A stretch of 64,000 nucleotides of DNA from Armigeres subalbatus (Eukaryota > Arthropoda > Insecta > Diptera > Culicidae): contig NC_085141.1 of assembly GCF_024139115.2 (NCBI RefSeq), forward strand, positions 36,896,120-36,960,119, given 5' to 3'. Positions 5,585 through 59,275 of the stretch are shown here, one piece after another; the stretch's first letter is position 1; the number at the start of each line of letters is the position of its first letter. The notes below the pieces were generated by a model. The model did no database searches and was not told where the DNA came from. It saw nothing but the letters and a program-made list of their open reading frames with translations. Made by a program: the position numbers and the translations under genes.

Positions 5585-5845
5585 TTCGGAAAAATATCGA
5601 TACTGCCGAATCGATGTTTTTATTATCGAAATATCGATGCCGGAAAATATCGGCGTTGAAACATCGAAATTCCGATAGAATTACAAGCACGAGCAAAAAA
5701 CATAGAAAACTTTAGATTTCCCATTTTAGATCATCGAATCACACATCAAAAAAACGATATGGTCAAATATCGTAAAAAATCGATACAAAATATCGATTAA
5801 TCGGAGCGAAAATATCGATTCCCGATATATCGTATCGGTATCGCC
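5585..5845. repeat. Cluster of TATCGAT/ATATCGAT motifs
   Basis: Within about 260 bp the hexamer ATCGAT or a close relative appears over ten times, often as AAAATATCGAT and in both orientations (for example around 5595, 5610, 5628, 5645, 5775, 5795 and 5820). TATCGATA is the DRE motif bound by DREF/BEAF-type proteins in Drosophila. This could be a degenerate tandem repeat, a promoter/insulator-like cluster, or a TE end. No gene start is evident beside it. Confidence 0.5.
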
Positions 5846-5850
5846 CATTC

Positions 5851-6406
5851 CTATTTTACGCAGAGCGGACGCAGCGGAGCGAACACAACAGCACGAAGGC
5901 GCTCTGGTAGCATTTTCAAAGGAAAATCATCGAATTGGTGGTGGAAGTCTGCGTTGGTGGTCGTCATTCAACCTCAACAACAAATCAAAATCTTGTGAGG
6001 AAATTCCATTTGACTGCTACTGACGCCATCCATTTGAACAAACTCATTGCATCATCTCCCTCCGACGCGCGCTTGTGGTTGTGCTACCAAAGGGCAACTT
6101 TCTGTCGTCGCCAAACGATGGTAGCCCGGAAAAAATCGATATCATTTCTAATGACTAACGAAACAAAACCAAAGAATCTTTCCAAAATCGTCATTGTCGT
6201 CTAAATAGCCCAACAGTCTGTTTGTCTGGGTAAACAATTTTCTCAACGGTCAAAACCTCTTCTTGGATAAATAGTAAGTCCTGAAAAGGACTATTTGTAA
6301 TTTATCCTTGAAATCCCGCTCACTTTGCCACCAACGCTATAGAAAACGATTCATGTACGTTTCCATCGCGGGCGGAAGTCAAACGTTGCAAATTGCTTAT
6401 TTTTCC
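5851..6406. other. Unassigned intergenic stretch
   Basis: No recognisable gene, RNA or repeat. A plus-strand frame at 5935-6204 is open for 89 codons but has no recognisable motif and is probably chance. The sequence is of mixed composition with no strong low-complexity tract. Confidence 0.4.
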
Positions 6407-7242: not shown

Positions 7243-7678
7243 GTTTAGGGGATTTAGAGTGGGGGGAAATGATGACCTGCGTCTTCGCCGCGTTGATACA
7301 GATCTTCCAGCTGGTGAGGTACTCTGTCAGGACATCCAGGCCTCGTTGGAGTTTTGCCACTAGCGCTCTGATCACTCTACCATTGTAGACGATGGAGGTG
7401 TCATCTGCGAACAGAGACAGATTGCCGCCTTCTGGAGGTTCTGGCATGTCTTAGGTGAACAGATTGAAAAGCAGGGGCCGAGGATACTTCCCTGGGGGAC
7501 GCCTGCGACGATGTTGTGTGCATTGGAGCTCACTCTTCTGATTGAGACCCGGGATATCCCTGCCGACAGGTACATGTTGTTGATTTTCACCAGGTGGCTG
7601 GGAAGATTGTAACGATGTTGTTTGTACACCAGGCCATACATTGTTGAATGCCTTCTCGACATCGAGTAAGACCATGGC

Positions 7679-7897
7679 CACGGCATACAAAAAAACAAGG
7701 CAGGCCAGCACGCATATAAACATTCAGTTTGATTGTAAACATGTGACGTAAATACTATCTTCGCACAAGCTGAACCGAGACGATGCTCTACGGTCTCGGC
7801 ATGCTTACTTTTGTACTCCAGCATGTGGCGATAAAATATGCGTTACTCTTGAAGTGTCATTTTTCTTACGAGCCTACCTTGTTGTCTGTATACCGTG
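7679..7897 (-). mobile_element. 219-bp hAT-like MITE, copy 2, inverted
   Basis: Reverse-orientation copy of the element at 7023-7242, clearly alignable over its full length. Flanks are ACCATGGC and GCCATGGC (8 bp, one mismatch). Two oppositely oriented copies 437 bp apart in one LINE fragment give a transcript through this region a long hairpin. Confidence 0.8.
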
Positions 7898-7911: not shown

Positions 7912-8576
7912 AGGCCCACATTTCATTGACAATCACTTTCAATAACGTTTATTTATTTGGTCAGCCCAACATAAAACGCACCCAAAAAATCTGGATGATC
8001 GGAACTAGGATAGTTTTCTGAAAGTTTTTCAGGAGTTTGGATTTTTAGTCAGCAAAATCGTGCTAAAAGGAAGAATCTAATGGAAACCAAATCGTCTAAC
8101 AGTTAACCAATGAACAAAAAATCATACTCCGCCCTATGCATCAAATGCATTTTCTTATAAAGACACTTATTTTCATGACTCTTGGTACAACCATCAGACT
8201 TTGAAGTGATCGATGAGCTTCACTTTCATTCGTCTTGATGAACGATGCAATGATCAGAAGCGTAATTTTAAAAAACATCACCAATGTTAATGGTGAAGCC
8301 CCGCTAATATTTGTGAAAACAAAAATATCTGTATAAAACCATCACACATAGAAATGCCGAGAAAATATCCAACCTAAAAACACCCAAGACCGCTTGGTAT
8401 GCTTGGTAAAAATGGTTCGATAATAATGTCCTAATTCCGATCAGTTTCTTTATACTAATTTTCTCGATATCATCCCTTGGGAAATCTCTATTTTGTCAAA
8501 AGAGCAATGGCCTTTTTCCCGCTGCAACACTATTGATGAAACCACTAACCGGTCGGTCCATTTTCGAGTGATCCTA
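7912..8576. other. Unassigned AT-rich stretch
   Basis: No supported gene or repeat is seen here. It runs from the LINE break to the TA target site of the next TIR element. Confidence 0.4.
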
Positions 8577-8847
8577 CACTGTGCCAGCAAAGTACTCTTT
8601 AATGGGTAAAAAAGTACCCATTTCGAAGTTAAATAGTTCAACTCATTAAAAGAGTAAACAGCGTTTACTCATTAATGAGTAAAACGCATGTACGTCATAT
8701 TCGGGCGTACTTTTTACCCATTATATCAAAAAACATTTTTGGAGAAATGGGTATTTTTTACTCTTGATTATTTTTTAAAAAAAGGCCTAAATGTAATGAT
8801 ATTCATCGAAAAAGTGACGCAATTACAAGGTATATGTAAAATAACTC

Positions 8848-8875
8848 TTTATTTTATTTATTATTTTATTGTATA
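8848..8875 (-). terminator. Overlapping poly(A) signals of the element A gene
   Basis: Several overlapping minus-strand AATAAA hexamers lie 67-94 nt past the stop codon at 8942, still inside the element. Confidence 0.6.
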
Positions 8876-8941
8876 GATACATAACAAGACATAGTATGTA
8901 TTTAAAACAGCAACTTTGCTATTTTTGCTCACCAATCTGTT

Positions 8942-9722
8942 TCACCGGGTCGCATCGATGAACCTAGTGGCAGAACAGATTCCGCAATTAAGGACGCGTT
9001 TTAAGGGTGGGTTCTCCAACGGCGGCCGCCTCTGGAACCAGTCAACTAAATCGATGGCTTTGTGCCAACCATCTCGGACAATGTACTCCCGATCGCCGCA
9101 ACAACGGAATCGCCAGGGAAATATGGATATGAAGCTGGCATCCTGCAGACCGTGCACTGGCAGTATCAATTTCACATCCTCGATGTTCCCAAGCACGACA
9201 CAATCCATATTAACGCTAATCAATCCAACACTATGCTCGTACTGCGGCCTGCGGGTGAAAAAAATATTTATTTTGTGTAGGGGGCCGGGTTATGAGGAAC
9301 TTACATTGTAATCACTTCCACAAAGTCCGATTTTCCTGCGACGTTGTCGGATGAATTTGGCTGAAGTACAGAAGGCATATCGTTGCATCCCTTCATCATG
9401 AACAGCAACAAATATTCACCGCAGTCCGATGATTCTATTCTGGAAAGAAAAGTAAGATTGAAATGGAAAGGTTCGGCGCATCCAGCAACATACTTACAAT
9501 CCTTTGGCAATCCTTGTCTTGGGAATCCTCACATGATGGAACAGCTCCTTATTACCGTTGGGTGTCGTTTTAGCCTTGCCATCCATGACGGGGTACCACG
9601 CGTAATAGTCTGGTAATATTAGATTTCGTAATATTTTAAAATATTTACCTAACCAACAAACTAGCAAATATGCTACAATCGACAAATCGTTTGTTTGAAA
9701 GTACAATTTGTTTTTCACTCAT
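8942..9722 (-). CDS. Intact four-exon cargo gene of element A, 204 aa, unknown function
   Basis: Exons (transcription order) 9722-9662, 9609-9498, 9439-9305 and 9248-8942 are joined by introns of 52, 58 and 56 bp. All are GT-AG (donors GTTTGT, GTAAGT, GTAAGT). Exon phases fit exactly: 61+112+135+307 = 615 nt, 204 codons and a TGA. The ATG (MSEKQIVLSNKR) lies in an ACTCATTAATGAGT subterminal motif. An alternative donor at GTAAAT breaks the frame, so the 52-bp intron is preferred. Notable segments are YYAWYPVMDGK, SDCGEYLLLFMMKGCND, LILPVHGLQD, DREYIVRDGWHKAIDLVDWF and a C-terminal CGIC pair that might bind metal. There is no signal peptide, no zinc-finger array and no DDE motif. I do not recognise the family. 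Poly(A) signals follow within the element. Full openness through four exons implies recent selection or recent insertion. Confidence 0.75.
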
Positions 9723-9868
9723 TAAAGGGTATAAACAAGGAACTTTAAAATGGGCATAAAACACTCATTTTGCAAAGAAAATAATCACCCATTTTTTGAC
9801 AGTTTCATATATCGCCAAAAAAGGGGTGATTTTTACTCTTTAAAGAGTATTGTCGGGTTTACAGTGTA

Positions 9869-22785: not shown

Positions 22786-22977
22786 CACTGTAAACCCAAC
22801 AATACTCTTTAAAGAATAAAAAACACCCATTATTTTTCCATATATGAAACTGTCAAAATAATGAGCATTATTCTTTTTTCGAAAATGTGTTATTTATGCC
22901 CATTTTGAAGTTCCAAGCTTTTACTCATTAATGAGTGAAAAACAAGTTGAAATTAATTTATAAACAAGCAACCGGAG

Positions 22978-23482
22978 ATGCTGATGGCGAATGAGGTAAG
23001 AATTATTGCTTTCATTGCTGTTATTTCTAATAAATGTTTAATAAATTATGTTTATTTTAGCCCGAACAATCAGCAAACATCAGCCGCAAACAAAGTTGAC
23101 CCCAGCAAACCTTCGATTTTAGAATATATTTCTTAGGCAGCTGGTGGTGGTGGTTAGGAAGCCGAAAAACGATCATCACCAATAGAGAAAGCCTTTGTTT
23201 CCAGCATTGGTCCCGGAGAAAGCTGCTGATAATATCCCGGGTATCGAGAAGCCGGAACGGTTGATAATAATAATGCCGATTCCGGCATTTACTCCTGATG
23301 CAGCTGCTAGTGGTACTCCGCAATTCTGTTCAGAAATACCGCTATAAATTGAAGACTCATTTGAAGCTGCTTTGGTCCGATTTCGCTGGAGACAAGAGTT
23401 CTCAGGATGTGGTTGAGAACCAGTTATTTTCGTCGACGGAACCAGTTGGATCATATATATTCGTAGTTCCACCGAAAGAGTA
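22978..23482 (+). pseudogene. Decayed cargo gene of element B
   Basis: A short first exon (22978-22995, MLMANE) ends at a GTAAGA donor. A 65-bp-class intron closes at TTTTAG, and the next block has stops in every frame. A plausible residual reading near 23,330-23,480 includes LLWSDFAGDKSSQDVVENQL and VGSYIFVVPPKEY. It is cut at 23482 by element G. Same position and strand relative to the ends as the intact gene in element A, but the residual protein does not look alike. Confidence 0.4.
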
Positions 23483-23523
23483 CACACAAAAAACAAACAT
23501 GGTTTCATAGAATGTTTTGCACT

Positions 23524-23939
23524 CCCGCATAATAAAAAACAACATGTTATATGGTCGGAATCATTATTACGATGTAAGATATAGCTTCACAGTTTACGTT
23601 GCGGTTATCGAATACTTTTCAATCGATTCAACCATAACTGCTCGACAACATCACTAAATGTCAACATATAACATGCTGTCTCTAAAATGTTCTTTATTTC
23701 CTGCATTATATGTCAACATTTTATCATACTGTTGAGCGAAAATTTTGCACGCGAAAACAGACGATTTTTTATGGTGACATAACTTAACAACCCATTCAAC
23801 ATAGTGTTATTTGTCAAATAACCGTACCACAAACTGTTAAAACTTTATATGAGATTGTTCATTTACAGTTGTCAACAGTAAAGGATACTGTTGTCGACCG
23901 CACGGGAAAATATCCATGTACAGTTTGTATTTATGCGGG
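23524..23939 (+). mobile_element. 416-bp MITE family Q, copy 2
   Basis: Termini CCCGCATAA/TTATGCGGG, with 2-bp duplication CT on both sides. Almost identical to copy 3, hence recent. Confidence 0.85.
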
Positions 23940-24216
23940 CTTTCTCCTTGAAAAGTGCTTAATTTTCTTAAAATTAAAAATGAAATTAGCTTCATTGAAA
24001 ATATCTTTTTTATTTGAAAGTTATTTTTCTTCTGTTCCTAACGATAAATTAAAAGTTGTCTCATTCAATCTAAAAGTTGTTTTACTTTCAAAACATCGAA
24101 CGATATATGTATATACACAGTGTATACACTGCATGGGTGAAAAAGAGAAAAGAACACATTATGTCATGTATCTTATCCATCTTTTTCTTTTCCTCTCAGT
24201 GTATGACAAAAATTTG

Positions 24217-24642
24217 AACCGCGATAAAAACAAAGCAGCAGCGACGACGAGCAGAGGAAGCTAGCCACCACTGGCACTGCTCCCGATTTATAATTGCAAC
24301 TGCTATTGTGTGGTGGCGAATTAAGTTTTTACTACTATTGTGCGCTGGTGGAGCTCATATTTATTACGGAATCAAAAGGTAAGTAATATTTTTATTTATT
24401 CGAAACGATGCAGTACCGGGTCCCAGTGTGTATTAATTCGTATCACGGAAATTCGGTACCCAAATCCAGCACTTCAATGGCGTGAATGGAGTTGGGAGCT
24501 GTTTTAAATTTAGAATGAAGATCCTTATGCGACACTTGCTTTTTATTCCTACAGATTCGGTCCGGCAGTTTTGACAGGAAGAAAATCTGACACGTTCAAA
24601 AATGCATCTTCAAGAGTGGCTGGGGTCGATGGATTATGTTGA
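24217..24642 (+). CDS. Partial spliced cargo gene of element G, membrane-like
   Basis: A frame opens after a stop near 24217 and runs to a donor GTAAGT at 24379. After a 176-bp intron (acceptor CCTACAG, 24554) it continues in phase to a TGA at 24640-24642. It encodes basic residues, then a hydrophobic stretch RFIIATAIVWRIKFLLLLCA, then HIYYGIKRFGPAVLTGRKSD. An AATAAA lies at 24755-24760. No ATG precedes it, so the 5' part is missing, possibly cut by MITE Q copy 2 upstream. Function unknown. Confidence 0.4.
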
Positions 24643-25066
24643 AGCCTCGTCGGTAGTTTTGGAAACTACTACAGCTGCTAGTCGGGCTGAACGATGAATG
24701 TCATGAGATTTTGAGGACACCTGTCACATGTGCGTTATTTAATCATCCCAGAAAAATAAATATTGGGTTTAAAATAAATTGAAAATGAAATAAAAATGAA
24801 AATCGATTCAATTAAGTTTCAAAAAAAGCACAAATAGAGGAATGAGAAAACAAAAATTTGGAGAAAGTAAAACTTTCGTGTTAAATTAAAAATATCATTT
24901 TTTTTTCCTACAGTGTGATAGCAGATTGCGACTATTTTCATTTGACAGCTCCACAATGTTGTTTTGAAAGGTTTGTACTTTTATTTTTAGAGCCGCATGC
25001 CACTTTTGAAACATGGGTGTAACGAAAGTTTCCGTACTTTTTTTTTTAAACATACGTAACTCTCTA

Positions 25067-26163
25067 CACGCTAACCTGAAATAACTCAGTCGCTGGGTCG
25101 TTTGTACCCGGATTTTTCTGATATTAGCAGTTGTCAAAATCTGGGTATGTCAACAAAATGGATCTGAGTCAGACGAACCCGAAATCTGGGTAACTGGGGA
25201 CTTAAACATTTTCGGATGTATCAACATGGCGTCGACCGGCGTCGATGTTGCATGCCCAGGCATTGAAAGCGTGAGTGAAGTGGACGAGCATTGATCTAAT
25301 TGAATCATAGCATCCTTTGCCAGTGAGTGAACAGCCTTGCTCAGATGGACACCAAACAATGATTATGAGCGATCGTTGCTGGGTAAACAACGAGCAACAG
25401 AGTTCGCCAAGCCAAACTTGGTATGGTATCCAGGGAAGCTACGATTGGAGCATTTGTGTTACGCTCGCTCTACTAGAATAAAACCAAAACATATCAGGTG
25501 TTCTGCTTTATTCATTCTGCTTTCAAGTAGCTGGGATGGAGGAGAGAAAGTATCGAAGCCTCCCATGCAGTGTATCAGAGTTCCATTCTTATATCGGACT
25601 TAATTTTCCTAATGTCTGAAAAGATTTTTCTAACAGCGTGTGGTAACAACACTCATTGGTAGGTTAACAAGTGATTTGCCTCACTCAGTTGTCTCCCGTT
25701 GGTGAGCGATGAAGATCTTTAAACATTGAATCAACGAACGCCAAATCTCAACGATCTAGAAAGCATCAGCGATTAGACCGCAGTAGAGCATCAAGTTGGC
25801 ATGAATTTAGCCGATTTTTACTCATGATCTGATTTTTTTCAAAGCCTGTGCATGCCAGAATAAATGTTGGCATTTTTTCGTAGAATGCAGCAAAAAACAG
25901 GTAAGAAGTGTCGAATTTGTCATGGCGGAGCATTGTCGGCACAGCCGGCAAATGATATGTGTTGGGGATTTTGTTTTATTTAAGATTTTTTACACATTAA
26001 TAATTTTCTGGAGCGAAAAGAGCTGGGTACCGGTTACCCAGATTTTTCGCTTGTACGGTTACCCAGATTTGAGTCAAGGTACCCTTACCCATATTAGAGT
26101 AACCACGGTTTTGCCGAATCTGGGTCACTTTGACATAATTTTGGGTAGATCCAGGTTAGCGTG
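25067..26163. mobile_element. CAC element E: 1.1-kb, nested in G
   Basis: Perfect 12-bp TIR CACGCTAACCTG, TA on both sides (25065-25066 and 26164-26165), ends rich in CTGGGTA/TACCCAGAT motifs. The homologous uninterrupted sequence in element H near 33,000 proves the insertion. A minus frame at 25,766-25,933 (MLRHDKFDTSYLF...) and a plus-strand splice-like GTAAGA near 25,895 hint at a decayed cargo gene, but no consistent model was found. Confidence 0.8.
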
Positions 26164-26179
26164 TACGAAAAAGAACCAA

Positions 26180-27611
26180 CACGGAGAACCGAAACAACTC
26201 AAAATTGAGTCTTTTTCACTCAACTTGACAGCAAAGTGCAACCACTCAAAATTGAGTTATTCACTAAGTACTGAATTTTGAGTTATTTTAATAAAACTTT
26301 GGTTGAGTGATTTTTACTTATAGCCAATGAGTCGAGTCTGAGTGAAAATGACTGAAAATCGGGTTATTACGGTACCAAATTTTAAGCGAAATGAGGATTT
26401 GTTTCGTATATTGTACGTGGATTTCCCTATTGGACCCGACCGTTCGAAATAGTCGCTCCTTGAACGGTCGTTGGAATCGCCGTTTTCACCTTCACACCGG
26501 TTTTCATAGTAAAATCTGTCAAAACTGGCAAGTCTGCCACGTGTTTTTTACTGTTTCCCTCGGACTTCTCTTTCTTTTGACATCTGTTTTGATAGGCAAG
26601 GAGCAAAAAACAAGGTAATCTACCAAACATTTATTGAGTTTGGCAAACCTTGCTGCAAAAGGGAACGTTTGAAATAGTCAAGTGAACCGACCTTCGAATC
26701 CATTGGTCAAGTAAATCCACAATACTAAAATCTATAAATATCATCATGTTTATAATTTTTTTATTCAAAACTATTTTAAAAATAGAAAAACAAAGATAAT
26801 TACATTTTGATTATAAATGACTTTAATGATCCTGCGGGATGTATGCCGTGTCCTCTGCTGTCACGATCAGAAATTTGATGGAACAACGTTTCGAATCTGC
26901 AAAAAAAAAAGAAAATTTGCTGAATTACTCATAAAAAGAGCCATGAAGGAAATTGGAGGTAAATTTGGCTACGCCACCGAATGCAGGAGACTTTGTGGTT
27001 TGAGGTTAGATCCCATCACCGCAAACATTAATTAGCAATAGTTTAACTGGTATATCAGTTATTTACATGAAAAAATTAGTTCTAATAACGTCGTACTCTC
27101 GGTCGTACTTACCTTGCGGGAGATGTGATAAAATCAGAGAGGTAGTTTCCGAGGTGATTTATTGGTGATTGCCGGTAAAATCATTATTCCTTCCTAAAAC
27201 TGTACGCAGAATAAATAAGTTTTTTATATATTGATAAGAAACTAATTGTTACTCACCCGTAGTAAAGTACCTTCCTCGGAACTTTACATTTCGTTCCATT
27301 TTGCCTAAATTTTCACACAATTATCAATTTAAGTTGAAATTTGAGTTCGTAACTTCATAAAACAAATTGAGCGTCGGTTAATATGGTTGTAAGTAAATTT
27401 TCAGCCAAAACCATGTTAAGTGCCAAAACTTAATTTTGGATACTTACATATAAATAAAATAACTCAGTGGAAAGTGTTGGGGGTAAACTTCGTAATTAAG
27501 TATAAATCACCCAACAACCAAAATAAAAATATATCCAAAATGGGAGTGTTGGCAAATTTCTCAATTTTGAGTAGTTTCACACTTGATTTTGGATAGTTTC
27601 GAATTTCAGTG
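26180..27611. mobile_element. CAC element F: 1.43-kb, nested in G
   Basis: It begins CACGGAGAACCGAAACAACT and ends GTTTCGAATTTCAGTG. AA flanks both sides (26178-26179 and 27612-27613), a non-TA 2-bp duplication. ACTCAAAATTGAGT and TTGGATA-type motifs are repeated in the ends. Element H again shows the empty site. Confidence 0.8.
26817..27035 (+). CDS. Hypothetical 72-aa ORF in element F
   Basis: An ATG-started frame (MTLMILRDVCRVLCC) with several cysteines and a lysine-rich middle. It may be an exon of a larger cargo gene. No clear splice partner was found, and it could be chance. Family not recognised. Confidence 0.25.
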   Translation: MTLMILRDVCRVLCCHDQKFDGTTFRICKKKRKFAELLIKRAMKEIGGKFGYATECRRLCGLRLDPITANIN

Positions 27612-27873
27612 AACGCAACTTTTTATTTTAACCAACGTTTTTTTTAGTTTGACAAATGATTTTTCTTTCTGTGTACGTCTGGTAACGGCAATGTTTGAAG
27701 CCACCGGTGGAAAAAACAATGCTAAATTTGTTCATAGTTTTTAAGTTTGTATATATGTTGATAATTGAATAAATACAATCATATTTTTGCTTATTAAATA
27801 TTTATAGCATGTCTACCATTCAATATCTGATGATTCGTATCAATTTGTTTTCAATAATTTCGGGAAGGCATTA

Positions 27874-28585
27874 CCCAAGTAACCATGAAGCTATATATGC
27901 TTGTTAAAAACGCAGCCCTAAAAGTTGACTTAAAGTGGAAAAGGGCAATTATAAGACCGAATTAATGGTTTATTACTCTGGCATGTTGAAATAAAGCATC
28001 AGTAATGCGTCGCTGCATTCGCCCGCATAAATACAAACTGTACATGGATATTTTCCCGTGCGGTCGACAACAGTATCCTTTACTGTTGACAACTGTAAAT
28101 GAACAATCTCATATAAAGTTTTAACAGTTTGTGGTACGGTTATTTGACAAATAACACTATGTTGAATGGGTTGTTAAGTTATGTCACCATAAAAAATCGT
28201 CTGTTTTCGCGTGCAAAATTTTCGCTCAACAGTATGATAAAATGTTGACATATAATGCAGGAAATAAAGAACATTTTAGAGACAGCATGTTATATGTTGA
28301 CATTTAGTGATGTTGTCGAGCAGTTATGGTTGAATCGATTGAAAAGTATTCGATAACCGCAACGTAAACTGTGAAGCTATATCTTACATCGTAATAATGA
28401 TTCCGACCATATAACATGTTGTTTTTTATTATGCGGGCGTATTGCTGGTTTAGAGTATCGTTGTCTGACAGTTGATGAATAAATGCAACTTTACATCGTT
28501 AAAACAGATCTAATGCAATTAGCATTTAGCATGCCGATTTGTGATTGATATATGTGCAATATTGTAATGCTTGGTGTTACTTGGG
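27874..28585. mobile_element. TIR element P, 712 bp with MITE Q inside
   Basis: Termini CCCAAGTAAC/GTTACTTGGG, TA on both sides (27872-27873 and 28586-28587). It carries MITE Q copy 3, so its own length is about 296 bp. Nested in element B. Confidence 0.7.
28022..28437 (-). mobile_element. 416-bp MITE family Q, copy 3, inverted
   Basis: Reverse-oriented copy with CG on both sides (28020-28021 and 28438-28439). It differs from copy 2 at very few positions. Confidence 0.85.
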
Positions 28586-28932
28586 TATTTATTAAAAAGA
28601 GTATTTTTTACTCATTTTCCCATATAATTTTTCCTCTGATAATGGGTAAAAATTACTCGTTGGATTGACGTACGGATAGTTTACCCATTAATGAGTAAAT
28701 GATGTTTACTCTTTTAATGAGTTGAACTATTTAACTTCATAATGGGTACTTTTTTACCCATTAAAGAGTACTTTGATGGCACAGTGCACACACGGAGATT
28801 TGAGAATACCCATGAAATGTTTTAAAACTACCCACCTTCGAGATTTATATGAAGCTGTCAAAAAGATGGGTGATTTCAAAATTTGGAAAACGGGTGAAAA
28901 GTGCCCACTTTAAAACAGTTTCATGTAATCTA

Positions 28933-30679
28933 CACGCTTAGATCAATTTACCTATTTATTGGTACTTATATCACCCATATTTAGGTATTGCATACTTTAC
29001 TCATATTATTGGTAAAATATACCGAGAAAATCGGTAAATTTTACTTATATTTTTGGTAAGTTGACTTCACCTATATATGGGTGAATGAATTTACCCAAAC
29101 TTGGGTGAAAAAATAGACATTGTGTTATCAGTCGATCATTATCACTGAAACTGTTCCGGCGAATGTTTGTCATCAGGAACTTATTTTCTTAATAAGAAAA
29201 TTGACTTCGAAACCATGAATCGCGGTAAGTAAAAACAGCTTCATTCGTTATTTATGAGGAAGATGCCTGGGAAGATGTATTTACAAATGAAATTCCATCT
29301 CTTCCACAGTCGGAAGAGCAATACCGCGACTACTGTGCTGCCCAAGAACCATAGCAGAACTCCTCTTGTCGGATCTTCCTGGAGCTCAGAGTACCTAACC
29401 CATCCAAAGTCTCAGATCCAAAGCATCAGCCTACTGAATCAACAGCCATCGCAACAGGTAATTTTCGATTCTGATATACCTTCTTCAAGGGCAAGTTCCT
29501 GTAATCCCAATGACAACTAGTATCATTCTCTTTCACAGCCGCGTCACGCTACAAAATTGTCGCTGGGCTCCATAGCTATACTTTTTTGCTCTGCAATAAA
29601 ATTTATAACGATTGTTCTGGGAGGACTTTTGAAAATTTGTTCGGGTAAGTAGTTGATATTTGGTTTTACCATCCAAAGCAATAACATAATCGTTAACCAT
29701 CACAATCTTTTCCAGCCCTGTTTCACAAGACAACCGAGGGGCAATAGATTCTCTTATATGTTTTATATGCCGGAACGAGCCAGTTGGACATAGCTGAGAT
29801 TTACCTCTTGGTACGCTATGTAACGCGGGAGAGGCAACCTACGGAGGATCTGATTACTTGCGATGGACTTTGTTATGATGTGCTCTGGTTGCAGTGATGT
29901 ATATTCCGATTGTCCCAGTTAACACCCAGCTTGTAAAGTCCAAGGGAAAGCAGCAAGACAACGATTCTATCATAGGTCTTGTCCATGCTCTTTCCAATAT
30001 AGAACATACTGCAGGAACAGCCATTCAATGGCTCTATGCAGCGGTACCCACAGACCGGAAGGTCAGTCTCCGTCTATGTGGTGCAGCGTGCCTCATCGAA
30101 AGAATGAATCGGTCCGCAAAAGTGCTGTAGATACCGGAGCATTGATAAAGCGAGCGACGTAAAAATATGACACCGACATGATTTCGGCATTCGGGTATAT
30201 ATTTAGATTGGCCAGATTTGATGGCTTGAGTCGAGTAAATCAATCTGCGTGGAACAGCGGTATCACATGGACAGATTTGGCGAAGAGTGAGACTAGTCCT
30301 TGCCATCACCGGTTACCGGCAGATGATTCCTTCTGATCTGGCTGTTGAAAGTATATATTATAGTTGATCGTCCATTATTGTAAAAATTAATCATTGTTAT
30401 TCCGTTTGTAAATATAATGTCAATAAATCTGAACGATTCTTCTTATACAAGAGCTAAATTTACTTAATTATTATATTATTTTTAATCGCAAAATATCCAA
30501 ATGTACCAAGCAAAAAAAACACAAAAATTACCCAAATTTGGGTGAAATTTACCTATAAATCGCACTCTTCTAAATATACCTATATGGGTAAATGCCACTT
30601 TACCCATATTTAGGTATGTGCACTTTTAGGAGATTTTAGGTACTCTTCACCCACATTTGGGTGAACTGAACTAAGCGTG
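28933..30679. mobile_element. CAC element D: 1.75-kb gene-carrying, nested in C
   Basis: It begins CACGCTTAGATCAATTTACC and ends GAACTGAACTAAGCGTG, with TA on both sides (28931-28932 and 30680-30681). Many TTACC/GGTAA and ACCCAAATTTGGGT-type motifs fill both ends. The interior has a multi-exon plus-strand gene remnant. Confidence 0.8.
29215..29900 (+). pseudogene. Multi-exon cargo gene remnant of element D
   Basis: ATG at 29215 is followed by a strong donor (29225, GTAAGT). Introns 29225-29309 (85 bp), 29458-29538 (81 bp) and 29645-29715 (71 bp) are all GT-AG, giving blocks 29310-29457, 29539-29644 and 29716 onward. One frame through blocks 2-4 is phase-consistent apart from a single TAG in block 2 (segments YKIVAGLHSYTFLLCNKIYN and ENLFGPVSQDNRGAIDSLIC). 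It does not join the ATG frame. A second frame gives GTSQLDIAEIYLLVRYVTRE further down. The gene structure is clear but the frame is damaged. Family unknown. Confidence 0.5.
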
Positions 30680-31637
30680 TAAGGTGTGGTGGTTTTTTAT
30701 CCTTTTATGGATGAAAAATCTGTTTGCAGTTTTTCGCGAGATTTTAGAATGGAGTCCTATTGGAAAACTTACTCTAAATTGTTTTAATTTATTTCAACGA
30801 TGTATTAAATAAGAGACAAAGTCCAGACATAATCACGTCAGTAAAGTAATTAGTAATATATAATTATAATGCAGTCGAGACATTGAACGTAAGTATTTCA
30901 GTGTTCTTAAAACTGCTAAATTTATAAGAAAATGAGAGCAGTGTAAATTGGATCCCACTGGACTCCGATATTTGAGTAAACTTTTTTTTTTGTGATTTTT
31001 AGCTGGCTTCTTCATGGATCTATAACGGATGGGTCAATAACACGATAATCTCACGATTACGTTACATTTGAAGACAGTAGTAATTAGAAGACAGTAGAAA
31101 TTTGGATACATATAAGAGGACCCAGAGGATTATTGAACTGATGGCTGATACAACTATAAATCTTGAAAAACCTTAAACTTAAGCTTCTGTAATTTGTATA
31201 TACTTAAAAGAGGAATAATCAATAAATAATGTATTGCATGTACTTCTTTTTATATCTTAATAATATTTATTTAACATAACAAATTTATCAGCGCTGAAAA
31301 TAATTTGCTGCAGATGGGTGATTTTCACCCATATGAAGAAAGCTTAGCTTTAGGAAGGTGAGTGAAAACTACACATCCATTTTGACGTACAAACCTTCTT
31401 CCCATTTGTGGATAAAGCCACTTTACCCACCTTATGGGTTAGTCCAGTTATCTCGAAGGTGGGTGAAAAAACACCCATTTCTGGGCATTTTCATTTCTCC
31501 GTGCAGATGATTTTATTTTTGCTTCTCAAAGTTCCTTTGAAGTACACTGAAAACCAAAACTACCCAAAATTGGGTTGTTTGCACTCAAAACCGTGGTTTG
31601 GGCCAATAACCCAAATTTGAGTAAAATGACTTTTCTG

Positions 31638-34075: not shown

Positions 34076-37000
34076 TATATTAAAATTAAATTAAAATTAA
34101 ATTAAAATTAAATTAAAATTAAATTAAAATTAAATTAAAATTAAATTAAAATTAAATTAAAATTAAATTAAAATTAAATTAAAATTAAATTAAAATTAAA
34201 TTAAAATTAAATTAAAATTAAATTAAAATTAAATTAAAATTAAATTAAAATTAAATTAAAATTAAATTAAAATTAAATTAAAATTAAATTAAAATTAAAT
34301 TAAAATTAAATTTAAAATTAAATTAAAATTAAATTAAAATTAAATTAAAATTAAATTAAAATTAAATTAAAATTAAATTAAAATTAAATTAAAATTAAAT
34401 TAAAATTAAATTAAAATTAAATTAAAAATTAAATTAAAATTAAATTAAAATTAAATTAAAATTAAATTAAAATTAAATTAAAATTAAATTAAAATTAAAT
34501 TAAAATTAAATTAAAATTAAATTAAAATTAAATTAAAATTAAATTAAAATTAAATTAAAATTAAATTAAAATTAAATTAAAATTAAATTAAAATTAAATT
34601 AAAATTAAATTAAAATTAAATTAAAATTAAATTAAAATTAAATTAAAATTAAATTAAAATTAAATTAAAAATTAAATTAAAATTAAATTAAAATTAAATT
34701 AAAATTAAATTAAAATTAAATTAAAATTAAATTAAAAATTAAATTAAAATTAAATTAAAATTAAATTAAAATTAAATTAAAATTAAATTAAATTAAATTA
34801 AAATTAAATTAAAATTAAATTAAAATTAAATTAAAATTAAATTAAAATTAAATTAAAATTAAATTAAAATTAAATTAAAATTAAATTAAAATTAAATTAA
34901 AATTAAATTAAAATTAAATTAAAATTAAATTAAAATTAAATTAAAATTAAATTAAATTAAAATTAAATTAAAATTAAATTAAAATTAAATTAAAATTAAA
35001 TTAAAATTAAATTAAAATTAAATTAAAATTAAATTAAAATTAAATTAAAATTAAATTAAAATTAAATTAAAATTAAATTAAAATTAAATTAAAATTAAAT
35101 TAAAATTAAATTAAAATTAAATTAAAATTAAATTAAAATTAAATTAAAATTAAATTAAAAATTAAATTAAAATTAAATTAAAATTAAATTAAAATTAAAA
35201 TTAAAATTAAATAAAATTAAATTAAAATTAAATTAAAAATTAAATAAAAATCAATTAAAATTAAATTAAAATTTAATTAAAATTAAATTAAAATTAAATT
35301 AAAATTAAATTAAAATTAAATTAAAATTAAATTAAAATTAAATTAAAAATTAAATTAAAATTAAATTAAAATTAAATTAAAATTAAATTAAAATTAAATT
35401 AAAATTAAATTAAAATTAAATTAAAATTAAATTAAAATTAAATTAAAATTAAATTAAAATTAAATTAAAAATTAAATTAAAATTAAATTAAAATTAAATT
35501 AAAATTAAATTAAAATTAAATTAAAATTAAATTAAAATTAAATTAAAATTAAATTAAAATTAAATTAAAATTAAATTAAAATTAAATTAAAATTAAATTA
35601 AAATTAAATTAAAATTAAATTAAAATTAAATTAAAATTAAATTAAAATTAAATTAAAATTAAATTAAAATTAAATTAAAATTAAATTAAAATTAAATTAA
35701 AATTAAATTAAAATTAAATTAAAATTAAATTAAAATTAAATTAAAATTAAATTAAAATTAAATTAAAATTAAATTAAAATTAAATTAAATTAAATTAAAT
35801 TAAATTAAAATTAAATTAAAATTAAATTAAAATTAAATTAAAATTAAATTAAAATTAAATTAAAATTAAATTAAAATTAAATTAAAATTAAATTAAAATT
35901 AAATTAAAATTAAATTAAAATTAAATTAAAATTAAATTAAAATTAAATTAAAAATTAAATTAAAATTAAATTAAAATTAAATTAAAAATTAAATTAAAAT
36001 TAAATTAAAATTAAATTAAAATTAAATTAAAATTAAATTAAAATTAAATTAAAATTAAATTAAAATTAAATTAAAATTAAATTAAAATTAAATTAAAATT
36101 AAATTAAAATTAAATTAAAAATTAAATTAAAATTAAATTAAAATTAAATTAAAATTAAATTAAAATTAAATTAAAATTAAATTAAAATTAAATTAAAATT
36201 AAATTAAAATTAAATTAAAATTAAATTAAAATTAAATTAAAATTAAATTAAAATTAAATTAAAATTAAATTAAAATTAAATTAAATTAAATTAAAATTAA
36301 ATTAAAATTAAATTAAAATTAAATTAAAATTAAATTAAAATTAAATTAAAATTAAATTAAAATTAAATTAAAATTAAATTAAAAATTAAATTAAAATTAA
36401 ATTAAAATTAAATTAAAATTAAATTAAAATTTAAATTAAAATTAAATTAAAATTAAATTAAAATTAAATTAAAATTAAATTAAAATTAAATTAAAATTAA
36501 ATTAAAATTAATTTTAAAATTAATTTTAAAATTAATTTAAATTAAATTAAAATTAAATTAAAATTAAAATTAAATTAAAATTTAAATTAAAATTAAATTA
36601 AAATTAAATTAAAATTAAATTAAAATTAAATTAAAATTAAATTAAAATTAAATTAAAATTAAATTAAAATTAAATTAAAATTAAATTAAAAATTAAATTA
36701 AAATTAAATTAAAATTAAATTAAAATTAAATTAAAATTAAATTAAAATTAAATTAAAATTAAATTAAAATTAAATTAAAATTAAATTAAAATTAAATTAA
36801 AATTAAATTAAAAATTAAATTAAAATTAAATTAAAATTAAATTAAAATTAAATTAAAATTAAATTAAAATTAAATTAAAATTAAATTAAAATTAAATTAA
36901 AATTAAATTAAAATTAAATTAAAATTAAATTAAAATTAAATTAAAATTAAATTAAAATTAAATTAAAATTAAATTAAAATTAAATTAAAATTAAATTAAA

Positions 37001-37519
37001 ATTAAATTAAAATTAAATTAAAATTAAATTAAAATTAAATTAAAATTAAATTAAAATTAAATTAAAATTAAATTAAAATTAAATTAAAATTAAATTAAAA
37101 TTAAATTAAAATTAAATTAAAATTAAATTAAAATTAAATTAAAATTAAATTAAAATTAAATTAAAATTAAATTAAAATTAAATTAAATTAAATTAAAATT
37201 AAATTAAAATTAAATTAAAATTAAATTAAAATTAAATTAAAATTAAATTAAAATTAAATTAAAATTAAATTAAAATTAAATTAAAATTAAATTAAAATTA
37301 AATTAAAATTAAATTAAAATTAAATTAAAATTAATTAAATTAAATTAAAATTAAATTAAAATTAAATTAAAATTAAATTAAAATTAAATTAAAATTAAAT
37401 TAAAATTAAATTAAAATTAAATTAAAATTAAATTAAAATTAAATTAAAATTAAATTAAAATTAAATTAAAATTAAATTAAAATTAAATTAAAATTAAATT
37501 AAAATTAAATTAAATTTAA
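34076..37519. repeat. 3.44-kb array of an 11-bp A/T-only repeat
   Basis: About 310 tandem units of TTAAATTAAAA with rare variants (extra or missing A, one C at about 35,250). The array has essentially no G or C for 3.4 kb. It lies inside element N. It has no open frame and no known gene role. AT content suggests possible matrix-attachment or easily melted DNA, but that is inference. Confidence 0.97.
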
Positions 37520-37536
37520 ATTGCAACATGCTAGCG

Positions 37537-39517: not shown

Positions 39518-40462
39518 CACGGAAGCTCTCAAGTACCCATTAATGGGTATTTTCGTACCCATTTTGAAGAAAAGCGGCATAACTCATTAAATGGGTAAAC
39601 TCGATTTACTCATTAATGAGTATTCCCTCCAAACTTCAAATAATGGGTATTTTTTGCTCCTGAATTTTATTGGCGAAATGGGTAAATAAGCCCCATTTTT
39701 TTGTTTTGTAGATTTGAGGTTATGTTACATAAATAATTTGTCTATCCAAATAAGCACAGACAGTATGATATTAACACGATCGTAATTAAAGAACGTCAGC
39801 AAAACTTTTTTGTAAATTTATTATCGCTTTCCTTTACATTTCACATACATTTTGGAGCCAAATTCACCTGACATCATCGTCCTCGTTATCGGAAAATGAT
39901 CCTCCACATTCACATGATTCTTCTCGTGAGGTAGAAGCTTAGTTTGACTTGCGGAAAATGAATTTGATTCGTCGGGTACCAGGTGCAAAGCCATAGTTCT
40001 CTGCAGAGGAAAGGTGCTTGTATATGAGATCGGAACAGGTCACTGTAATGAACCAAAGAAATCCTATAGAAAAATATATTGTTTTGTATTGTGAATGGAA
40101 AAACTTACTTCACTTACGGCTCAGCAAAAAATCCTACCACTTTACATCAACGGATGTCTTGCTTTCCGCCCGGAACCATTTCCGGATCGTAGCGACTTTG
40201 AACAAAGCACACTCCTGGATTTTAACTTGGATTTTAATGACTTCTTGCCAATGACAAACTTCTCTTGTAAAATGATGGCGGTGTTGAAAAACTATTTCAC
40301 GGGTAATATTTACGCATTAAAGTTAGTCGAAGAGGAAGTATAAATTGTGGTTAATTTACCCATTTTATGTTGTCATTAAAAAGCCCATTTTTTGACATCT
40401 TCATACCGATTCAAAAAATGGGTACTCTAGACCCATATAATGGGTACTTCCAAATGTCCGTG
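39518..40462. mobile_element. CAC element K: 945-bp, nested in I
   Basis: It begins CACGGAAGCTCTCAAGTACC and ends ACTTCCAAATGTCCGTG, with TG on both sides (39516-39517 and 40463-40464). ACCCATTAATGGGTA and ACTCATTAATGAGT motifs recur in both ends, like elements A and B. Confidence 0.75.
40095..40343 (+). CDS. Hypothetical 82-aa ORF of element K
   Basis: ATG-started frame (MEKLTSLTAQQKILPLYING) with balanced composition and segments FEQSTLLDFNLDFNDFLP and ALKLVEEEV at the end. It may be the last exon of a cargo gene. On the opposite strand an intron-like segment (GTAAGT to CTATAG) and a 45-codon frame also exist, so the coding strand is uncertain. Not recognised. Confidence 0.3.
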   Translation: MEKLTSLTAQQKILPLYINGCLAFRPEPFPDRSDFEQSTLLDFNLDFNDFLPMTNFSCKMMAVLKNYFTGNIYALKLVEEEV

Positions 40463-58579: not shown

Positions 58580-59275
58580 AACTGAGCAAGCAGACTCTAT
58601 GGTTAAGAGTCGAGTGATCTGATGGAAAAGAGTTCCTCTCTTAAGAACGAACAGATCTTTCTACCAGATCTAGTCAACTCGTAACCAAATGAGAGCTGCA
58701 ACTGCGAGAACTCCAGAACAAGCCCCATTCCTTTTGTGGCTAGACTCTATAATTGAATGATTTGGAAAAGAGTTCCTCTCGCCAGAACGGACAAATCATT
58801 CCACCAAATCAGTCCACCGCTGAATTAAAAGAGAGCTACTTGATGTAGAACCCATTATTCTTACCTGTTAGGTAACCAGACTCAATTACGGAAAGGTGAG
58901 TGATTTCGCGGAAAGAGTTCCTCTCATAAGAACGGACAAATCATTCCGCCAAATCTGTTCACCCTTCGGTAAAAAGAGAGTTACCGCATCCCGACGTATT
59001 CCATTCAGGTAGCCAGACTCTATTGCTGAATGGTTAGTGATTTTGCGGAAAAGAGTTCCTCTCATAAGAACGGACAAATCATTCCCCCAAATCTATTCAC
59101 CATTCAGTGAAAAGAGAGCTACCGTGGTCCATTATATTCTAATAGCCTGACTCTATCAATGAGAGTTAAGTGATTTTGCGAAATAGAGCTCCTCTCATTG
59201 GAACGGAAAAATCAATTCGCCAAATCAATCTAACTCTAATTGAAAAGAGAGCTACTAGGACAAATTCCTTGACTT
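58580..59275 (+). repeat. Five ~140-bp tandem repeats before the 3' LTR
   Basis: Each unit contains AGACTCTAT, AAAAGAGTTCCTCTC, GAACGGACAAATC and AAAGAGAGCTAC (anchors at 58631, 58771, 58916, 59053, 59187). Within units, TGATTTGG pairs with CCAAATCA and the first and last segments (for example CTGAATGGTTAG and CACCATTCAG) are complementary. Units could fold as successive hairpins in the RNA. Confidence 0.8.

Follow-up and report, generated by a model that had tools for sequence, protein, structure and literature searches.

A probable Pack-TIR-like transposon of Armigeres subalbatus carries an apparent fragment of a prolyl endopeptidase gene

A 1,290-bp element with terminal inverted repeats, here called E1, lies in the 64,000-nucleotide stretch of Armigeres subalbatus DNA that we analysed (the window) and is very probably an old transposon of a Pack-TIR-like kind, one that took up part of a prolyl endopeptidase (PREP) gene and multiplied. 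As judged by protein comparison, its cargo is a rearranged and shrunken fragment of the host PREP gene. This gives an origin to a supposed orphan gene and makes E1 an animal example of a terminal-inverted-repeat (TIR) element carrying a multi-exon piece of a host gene.

Homology of the cargo to prolyl endopeptidase

The arithmetic of the exon model proposed in an earlier, sequence-only reading of this DNA checks out in its four exons, their coordinates and sizes, the in-phase GT-AG introns and the 204 codons. On the minus strand, 615 nt between 9722 and 8942 form exons of 61, 112, 135 and 307 nt (5' to 3') that give 204 codons and a stop, and the three introns of 52, 58 and 56 nt are all GT-AG. 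The features, all on the minus strand, are given below with PREP residues in the numbering of the Aedes albopictus protein (P0058).

9722-9662: exon 1
9661-9610: intron 1, 52 nt, with a weak donor, GTTTGT
9609-9498: exon 2, PREP residues 259-295, with one frame shift before DSQDKD
9497-9440: intron 2, 58 nt, GTAAGT...CAG
9439-9305: exon 3, PREP residues 312-355; in the P0058 alignment a pair of frame shifts around LLYFS cancel each other out
9304-9249: intron 3, 56 nt, GTAAGT...CAG
9248-8942: exon 4, of which 9214-9116 corresponds to PREP residues 415-447; stop at 8944-8942
8870-8865, 8862-8857, 8858-8853 and 8853-8848: four AATAAA hexamers resembling poly(A) signals, 3' of the stop

The four hexamers overlap or adjoin one another and agree with the poly(A) signals that had been read within the element. 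A fifth AATAAA lies inside intron 3 (9272-9267).

A search of PDB sequences with the whole 204-aa product listed ten matches, all of them prolyl endopeptidases (E 0.07-0.34), and each of the five shown in full aligned in two collinear segments. This first ranking of PREP may be taken as a lead, not as proof. Since the matches were weak but uniform, PREP proteins were compared with the product directly. In single pairwise BLASTP comparisons, to which the E-values refer, the product matched the two PREPs compared in this way, that of Aedes albopictus (P0058) at E = 2e-20 (76.6 bits) and that of Toxorhynchites (P0089) at E = 5e-22 (80.9 bits). When nine mosquito PREPs were compared with the 64-kb window by tblastn (E <= 0.01), all nine matched E1 and no other place. 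A profile built from 100 PREP proteins gave the product 24.7 bits and a second Armigeres copy (P0002, described below) 26.0 bits; when the product was shuffled 2,000 times, a score was reported for 1,200 of the shuffles, the best being 3.3 bits.

Alignment to P0058 that allows for frame shifts scored exon 2 at 81, exon 3 at 150 and exon 4 at 102, compared with maxima of 40, 44 and 54 among 100 base shuffles of each, and three other mosquito PREPs scored 68-76, 127-136 and 96-105. The PREP matches of the three exons are collinear, spanning residues 259-447, and 61 of the 101 aligned residues of the cargo (60%) are identical to the Aedes albopictus protein. The sequence-only reading had assigned the product to no known family and had proposed a BLASTP and HMM check; BLASTP, the profile and the frame-shift-aware alignment now identify it as PREP-derived. 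That reading had named an unmistakable match to a host gene, captured once, as an outcome contrary to it, and these comparisons provide such a match.

General family searches placed the cargo less readily. Neither Pfam, applied to individual frames as well as to the spliced product, nor NCBIfam returned a family above the cut-off or a PREP domain, and the Pfam scans gave sub-threshold matches only (one in one scan, four in other frames in a second). When the captured segment was used in a padded database search for relatives of PREP length, none of the 57 candidates scored reached E <= 10, and the similarity to PREP is therefore to be regarded as moderate. With exons 1-3 alone, ten unrelated chains preceded PREP (E 1.8) in the PDB search. 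In viral contigs, a pattern drawn from the element ends had no match, and the 46 pattern matches to the protein included no relative.

The borders of the PREP matches follow the predicted exons closely in most places. In exon 2 the match starts within 2 nt of the exon start and stops within 12 nt of its end; in exon 3 it reaches within 4 and 2 nt of the exon ends; and in exon 4 it begins 34 nt (P0058) or 21 nt (P0070 and P0090) past the splice site. Relative to PREP, the gene is not the intact one that had been described, in that it bears frame shifts and large deletions. In exon 2, DSQDKD is read in another frame than what precedes it, and the alignments of three of the four PREPs tried extend through the shift. 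The pair of shifts in exon 3 is read from the P0058 alignment only. No counterpart of residues 296-311 or of about 356-414 can be recognised, and the loss between exons 3 and 4 may amount to about 60 residues. PREP has a Ser-Asp-His triad in its catalytic domain, and from the domain layout of the enzyme we take the cargo piece to fall in the propeller domain. Past residue 447 the product has no significant PREP match. Since no catalytic domain can be recognised in it, peptidase activity would not be expected.

The last 172 nt of exon 4 have no significant match, their scores lying within the range of shuffles. We considered whether this end might derive from the PREP catalytic domain and rejected the idea. 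By tblastn all nine PREPs, which are not independent of one another, gave the same weak match (residues 569-584 in P0058; E 0.42-0.59), but the PREP profile scored the corresponding frame at -4.2 bits, less than the 3.6 bits attained by the highest-scoring shuffle of the exon 4 end, and gave the exon 4 end itself no score. Frame-shift-aware scores of 37-47 for five PREPs are likewise within what 150 base shuffles gave (mean 34, maximum 50); the alignments are split between two regions of PREP (three of the five PREPs against two). At the other end of the model, the ATG and first 19 nt of exon 1 lie inside the terminal block common to E1 and E2. BLASTP against P0058 and P0089 carries the PREP alignment through exon 1 residues 7-20, while exon 1 with intron 1, taken by itself, has PREP scores of 24-25, no better than shuffles (mean 27.4).

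Homology also bears on what an open frame of this size means. As a chance control, we made 150 dinucleotide-preserving shuffles of E1 and took from the better strand of each the longest ATG-to-stop path, with at most three introns (GT-AG, 45-70 nt); the intron limits were set after the exon model had been seen. With any GT donor allowed, 5 of the 150 shuffles gave at least 204 codons; with donors restricted to five pentamers, a choice that included E1's own, none did. On the minus strand of E1 the longest model has 229 codons with any donor and 204 with the five pentamers, and on the opposite (plus) strand 248 and 222. By itself, the open frame is only moderately beyond chance, suggestive rather than decisive, and we regard the minus strand as coding-derived because of its homology, not because of its openness. 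It is highly improbable that the four-exon model never had a coding origin and is merely a path left open by chance in AT-rich transposon DNA: the shuffles that attain 204 codons and the longer model on the opposite strand would be compatible with it, but collinear PREP homology stands far above shuffles. This homology refutes a chance origin of exons 2 and 3 and of the first part of exon 4, whereas exon 1 and the last ~57 codons of exon 4 may have arisen by chance.

Element ends and related elements in the window

E1 ends in terminal inverted repeats that match each other and lies within a target-site duplication; at 1,290 bp with TA on both flanks it agrees with the 1.29-kb transposon that had been proposed. 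Four further elements in the window are listed with it.

8575-8576: left copy of the TA target-site duplication of E1
8577-9866: E1, 1,290 bp, with CACTGT...ACAGTG ends, cargo on the minus strand; defined by its ends and duplication
8577-8753, minus strand: terminal block of E1 on the cargo 3' side, 83.2% identical to the E2 end (E1 1114-1290 against E2 5824-6001)
9704-9866, minus strand: terminal block of E1 on the cargo 5' side, 83.6% identical to the E2 end at 22786-22949 (E1 1-163 against E2 1-164)
9867-9868: right copy of the TA target-site duplication of E1
22786-28786, plus strand: E2, same family as E1, with a CA duplication, the same ends and a different inside
28791-31503, plus strand: E4, related element of 2,713 bp with a CA duplication, interrupted by E5; 69 bp at 75% in common with E1
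28933-30679, plus strand: E5, nested in E4, 1,747 bp, with CACGCTTAG ends and a TA duplication
39518-40462, minus strand: E3, related element of 945 bp with a TG duplication; 92 bp at 76% in common with E1

The ends of E1 and E2 align over 165 and 179 bp at 83-84% identity, with no further same-strand match at E <= 1e-3, and the inside of E2 had no PREP match in the tblastn comparison with the nine mosquito PREPs (E <= 0.01). The same ends therefore occur without PREP cargo. The suggestion that the element was built to move a small gene finds no support in this relative. Same ends around different insides are the mark of Pack-type elements, and cargo capture is seen here for E1 alone. It is very unlikely that the inside of E1 is a remnant of the element's own autonomous gene and not of a host gene. 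Nothing specific speaks for such an origin, although both known copies, in the window and in an Armigeres gene model, carry the same piece; E2, with ends 83% identical, is without a PREP match, the E1 frames scanned with Pfam held no transposase domain, and PREP is a conserved cellular enzyme. The earlier statement that the protein is not transposase-like agrees with this, and E1 is a short TIR transposon that carries non-transposase coding DNA with predicted introns.

E1, E3 and E4 have shorter stretches in common near their ends (70-76%), and the motif TATGAANNTGTCAAA occurs near the same end in E1-E4. Since E5 has no sequence match to E1-E3, its kinship is one of end type and duplication only. 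All five elements start with CAC (CACTG, CACGG or CACGC, in no case CACTA) and are flanked by perfect 2-bp duplications. Elements of the CACTA (CMC) superfamily have CACTA-type termini and 2-3-bp duplications, which the CAC ends and short duplications of E1-E5 may resemble; the E1 frames scanned gave no transposase by which to assign a superfamily. E2 and E4 are adjacent and E5 lies inside E4. With five CAC-ended elements in 64 kb, this genome may lend itself well to work on how mosquito transposons capture genes.

The insides of the other elements were searched for host genes, and none was assigned in Pfam and PDB searches of the open reading frames of E2, E3 and E5: ten such frames gave one sub-threshold Pfam match and no family, and three gave no PDB match at E <= 1. 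E3 has an 82-codon ATG frame at 40095-40343, on the strand opposite to the E1-like orientation, with no Pfam or PDB match at E <= 1. In E5, GTAAGT-like donors and pyrimidine-rich CAG acceptors, read by eye, flank short open stretches in the manner of a spliced gene. A further element interrupts E2, and the arms of its 420-bp inverted repeats (23521-23940 and 28021-28440) are 99.8% identical.

The window holds other repeats as well. A 3.4-kb tandem array at 34079-37522 consists of about 313 copies of an 11-bp unit, ATTAAAATTAA, at 97% matches, and a second tandem repeat at 58870-59226 has 2.7 copies of a 133-bp unit at 80% matches. Open stretches on the minus strand at 7372-7842, which we take to resemble a decayed non-LTR reverse transcriptase, had no Pfam match at E <= 0.1.

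A second copy and the question of selection

Among 30 candidates from a protein database, the product had one match at E <= 10, an uncharacterised Armigeres subalbatus gene model of 171 aa (P0002), which is annotated as a gene by NCBI with an isoform X1 label and which itself matched PREP at E 0.038 in the PDB search. The two proteins are identical at 126 of 137 aligned residues, free of gaps, and agree only in exons 3-4. P0002 has neither exon 1 nor the greater part of exon 2; it reads the exon 2 tail in the other frame (KDCQRIV, window position 9515) and ends in a different frame from the window model (PLGSSMRPG at 8970, KIAKLLF at 8925). It keeps the same residues at the exon 3 frame shifts (MPSVLQPN) and the same exon 3/4 junction (VITMPQY), which suggests that the PREP piece was copied after these rearrangements. 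With this second copy of exons 3-4, rearranged in the same way, the piece has to all appearances multiplied, and a direct test becomes possible of whether the cargo is selected or merely carried.

To gauge what decay alone might leave, the three aligned segments were evolved neutrally to the observed identity, starting from randomly back-translated codons and ignoring indels. No stop arose in 14% of 3,000 runs, and in 3.3% there was no stop together with a pattern at least as conservative as that observed. The 101 PREP-aligned codons are open somewhat beyond this expectation, and both copies came to notice as open frames, which biases them towards openness. The simulation does not exclude decay and is no proof either way.

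One alternative is that the rearranged PREP piece has become a small protein-coding gene of its own, under selection and spread by transposition, as has been argued for Ssk-FB4. The gap-free agreement with P0002, the NCBI annotation of that copy, the lack of stops in the PREP-aligned codons and the mutual compensation of the exon 3 frame shifts all accord with such a gene. We nevertheless regard it as unlikely, given that the window model and P0002 read differently at both ends, that P0002 was found as an annotated open frame, and that neutral runs without a stop are not rare. More speculatively, the transposon may have made and spread a new family of small, non-catalytic, expressed and selected mosquito proteins from a PREP propeller fragment by way of compensating frame shifts and deletions, its ends marking a mosquito-wide class of gene-shuffling elements with up to five members here; we regard this bolder proposal as unlikely too.

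Origin by capture and comparison with known systems

We hypothesize instead that the ends of a non-autonomous DNA element captured a genomic piece of the host PREP gene, introns included. Because introns fall on or close to the borders of the PREP matches, the capture would have been from genomic DNA and not from an mRNA copy; a retrocopy would lack introns such as introns 2 and 3 (GTAAGT...CAG, predicted splicing), which lie on or close to these borders. The event may have taken place in a mosquito lineage, possibly in an Aedes-like form, and internal deletions and frame shifts probably followed. The second copy of rearranged exons 3-4 in the Armigeres gene model suggests that the element was then copied, presumably by transposase supplied from elsewhere. 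An Aedes-like source is only a possibility and a weak one: the Aedes albopictus protein is the closest of the nine mosquito PREPs in segments 1 and 2 and is tied with two others in segment 3, whereas whole-product BLASTP slightly favours Toxorhynchites (80.9 against 76.6 bits). The product, if made, would be a PREP propeller fragment without a peptidase active site. At present the piece is most likely passive cargo in decay, which may still be transcribed and spliced from the element or from flanking sequence.

Compared with PREP itself, the cargo is alike in that exons 2-4 align in order to residues 259-447 of the Aedes albopictus enzyme, and unlike it in its frame shifts, its large deletions and its want of a recognisable catalytic domain. 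No description was recognised in literature searches on this PREP capture and on mosquito elements with such ends.

Among plant transposons, Pack-TYPE and Pack-CACTA elements were reportedly the subject of a study by Catoni et al. in 2018. As PMC8903248 outlines, such elements are non-autonomous, and the coding DNA that they capture is shuffled. E1 is like them in this non-autonomous capture and unlike them in its animal host, and the window elements have 2-bp duplications of TA, CA, TG, CA and TA. The ATon elements of Aedes aegypti (PMC3422177) are mosquito non-autonomous TIR elements with dinucleotide targets, as are the window elements; ATons insert specifically at AT, unlike the five elements described here.

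The closest counterparts are the animal Pack-TIRs. Tan et al. (2021; PMC8277862) report 370 young Pack-TIRs from 100 animal genomes, the filters (a parental copy of at least 90% identity and a length ratio of 80-120%) admitting young cases only; some are multicopy, some are transcribed, and the captured host sequence is at times exonic. E1 likewise has TIR ends around an inside derived from a host gene, as its PREP homology indicates. It differs in being much older or faster-decayed, with internal deletions and 60% protein identity to the nearest PREP examined. E1 would be unlikely to satisfy the filters of that study as given there, because 61 of 101 residues are identical at the protein level and pieces are missing. 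The same study describes Ssk-FB4, one multicopy family in fly populations (Drosophila melanogaster) that is young, strongly transcribed and reported to be under positive selection (PMC8277862). In Ssk-FB4 as in E1, a TIR element carries a piece of a host gene and has multiplied it, with splicing that follows the parent gene (predicted in the case of E1); Ssk-FB4 is young and strongly expressed, whereas E1 holds a PREP fragment without an active site that is known from sequence alone. Capture of gene pieces by transposons is already known from plants and animals, and E1 is a further case.
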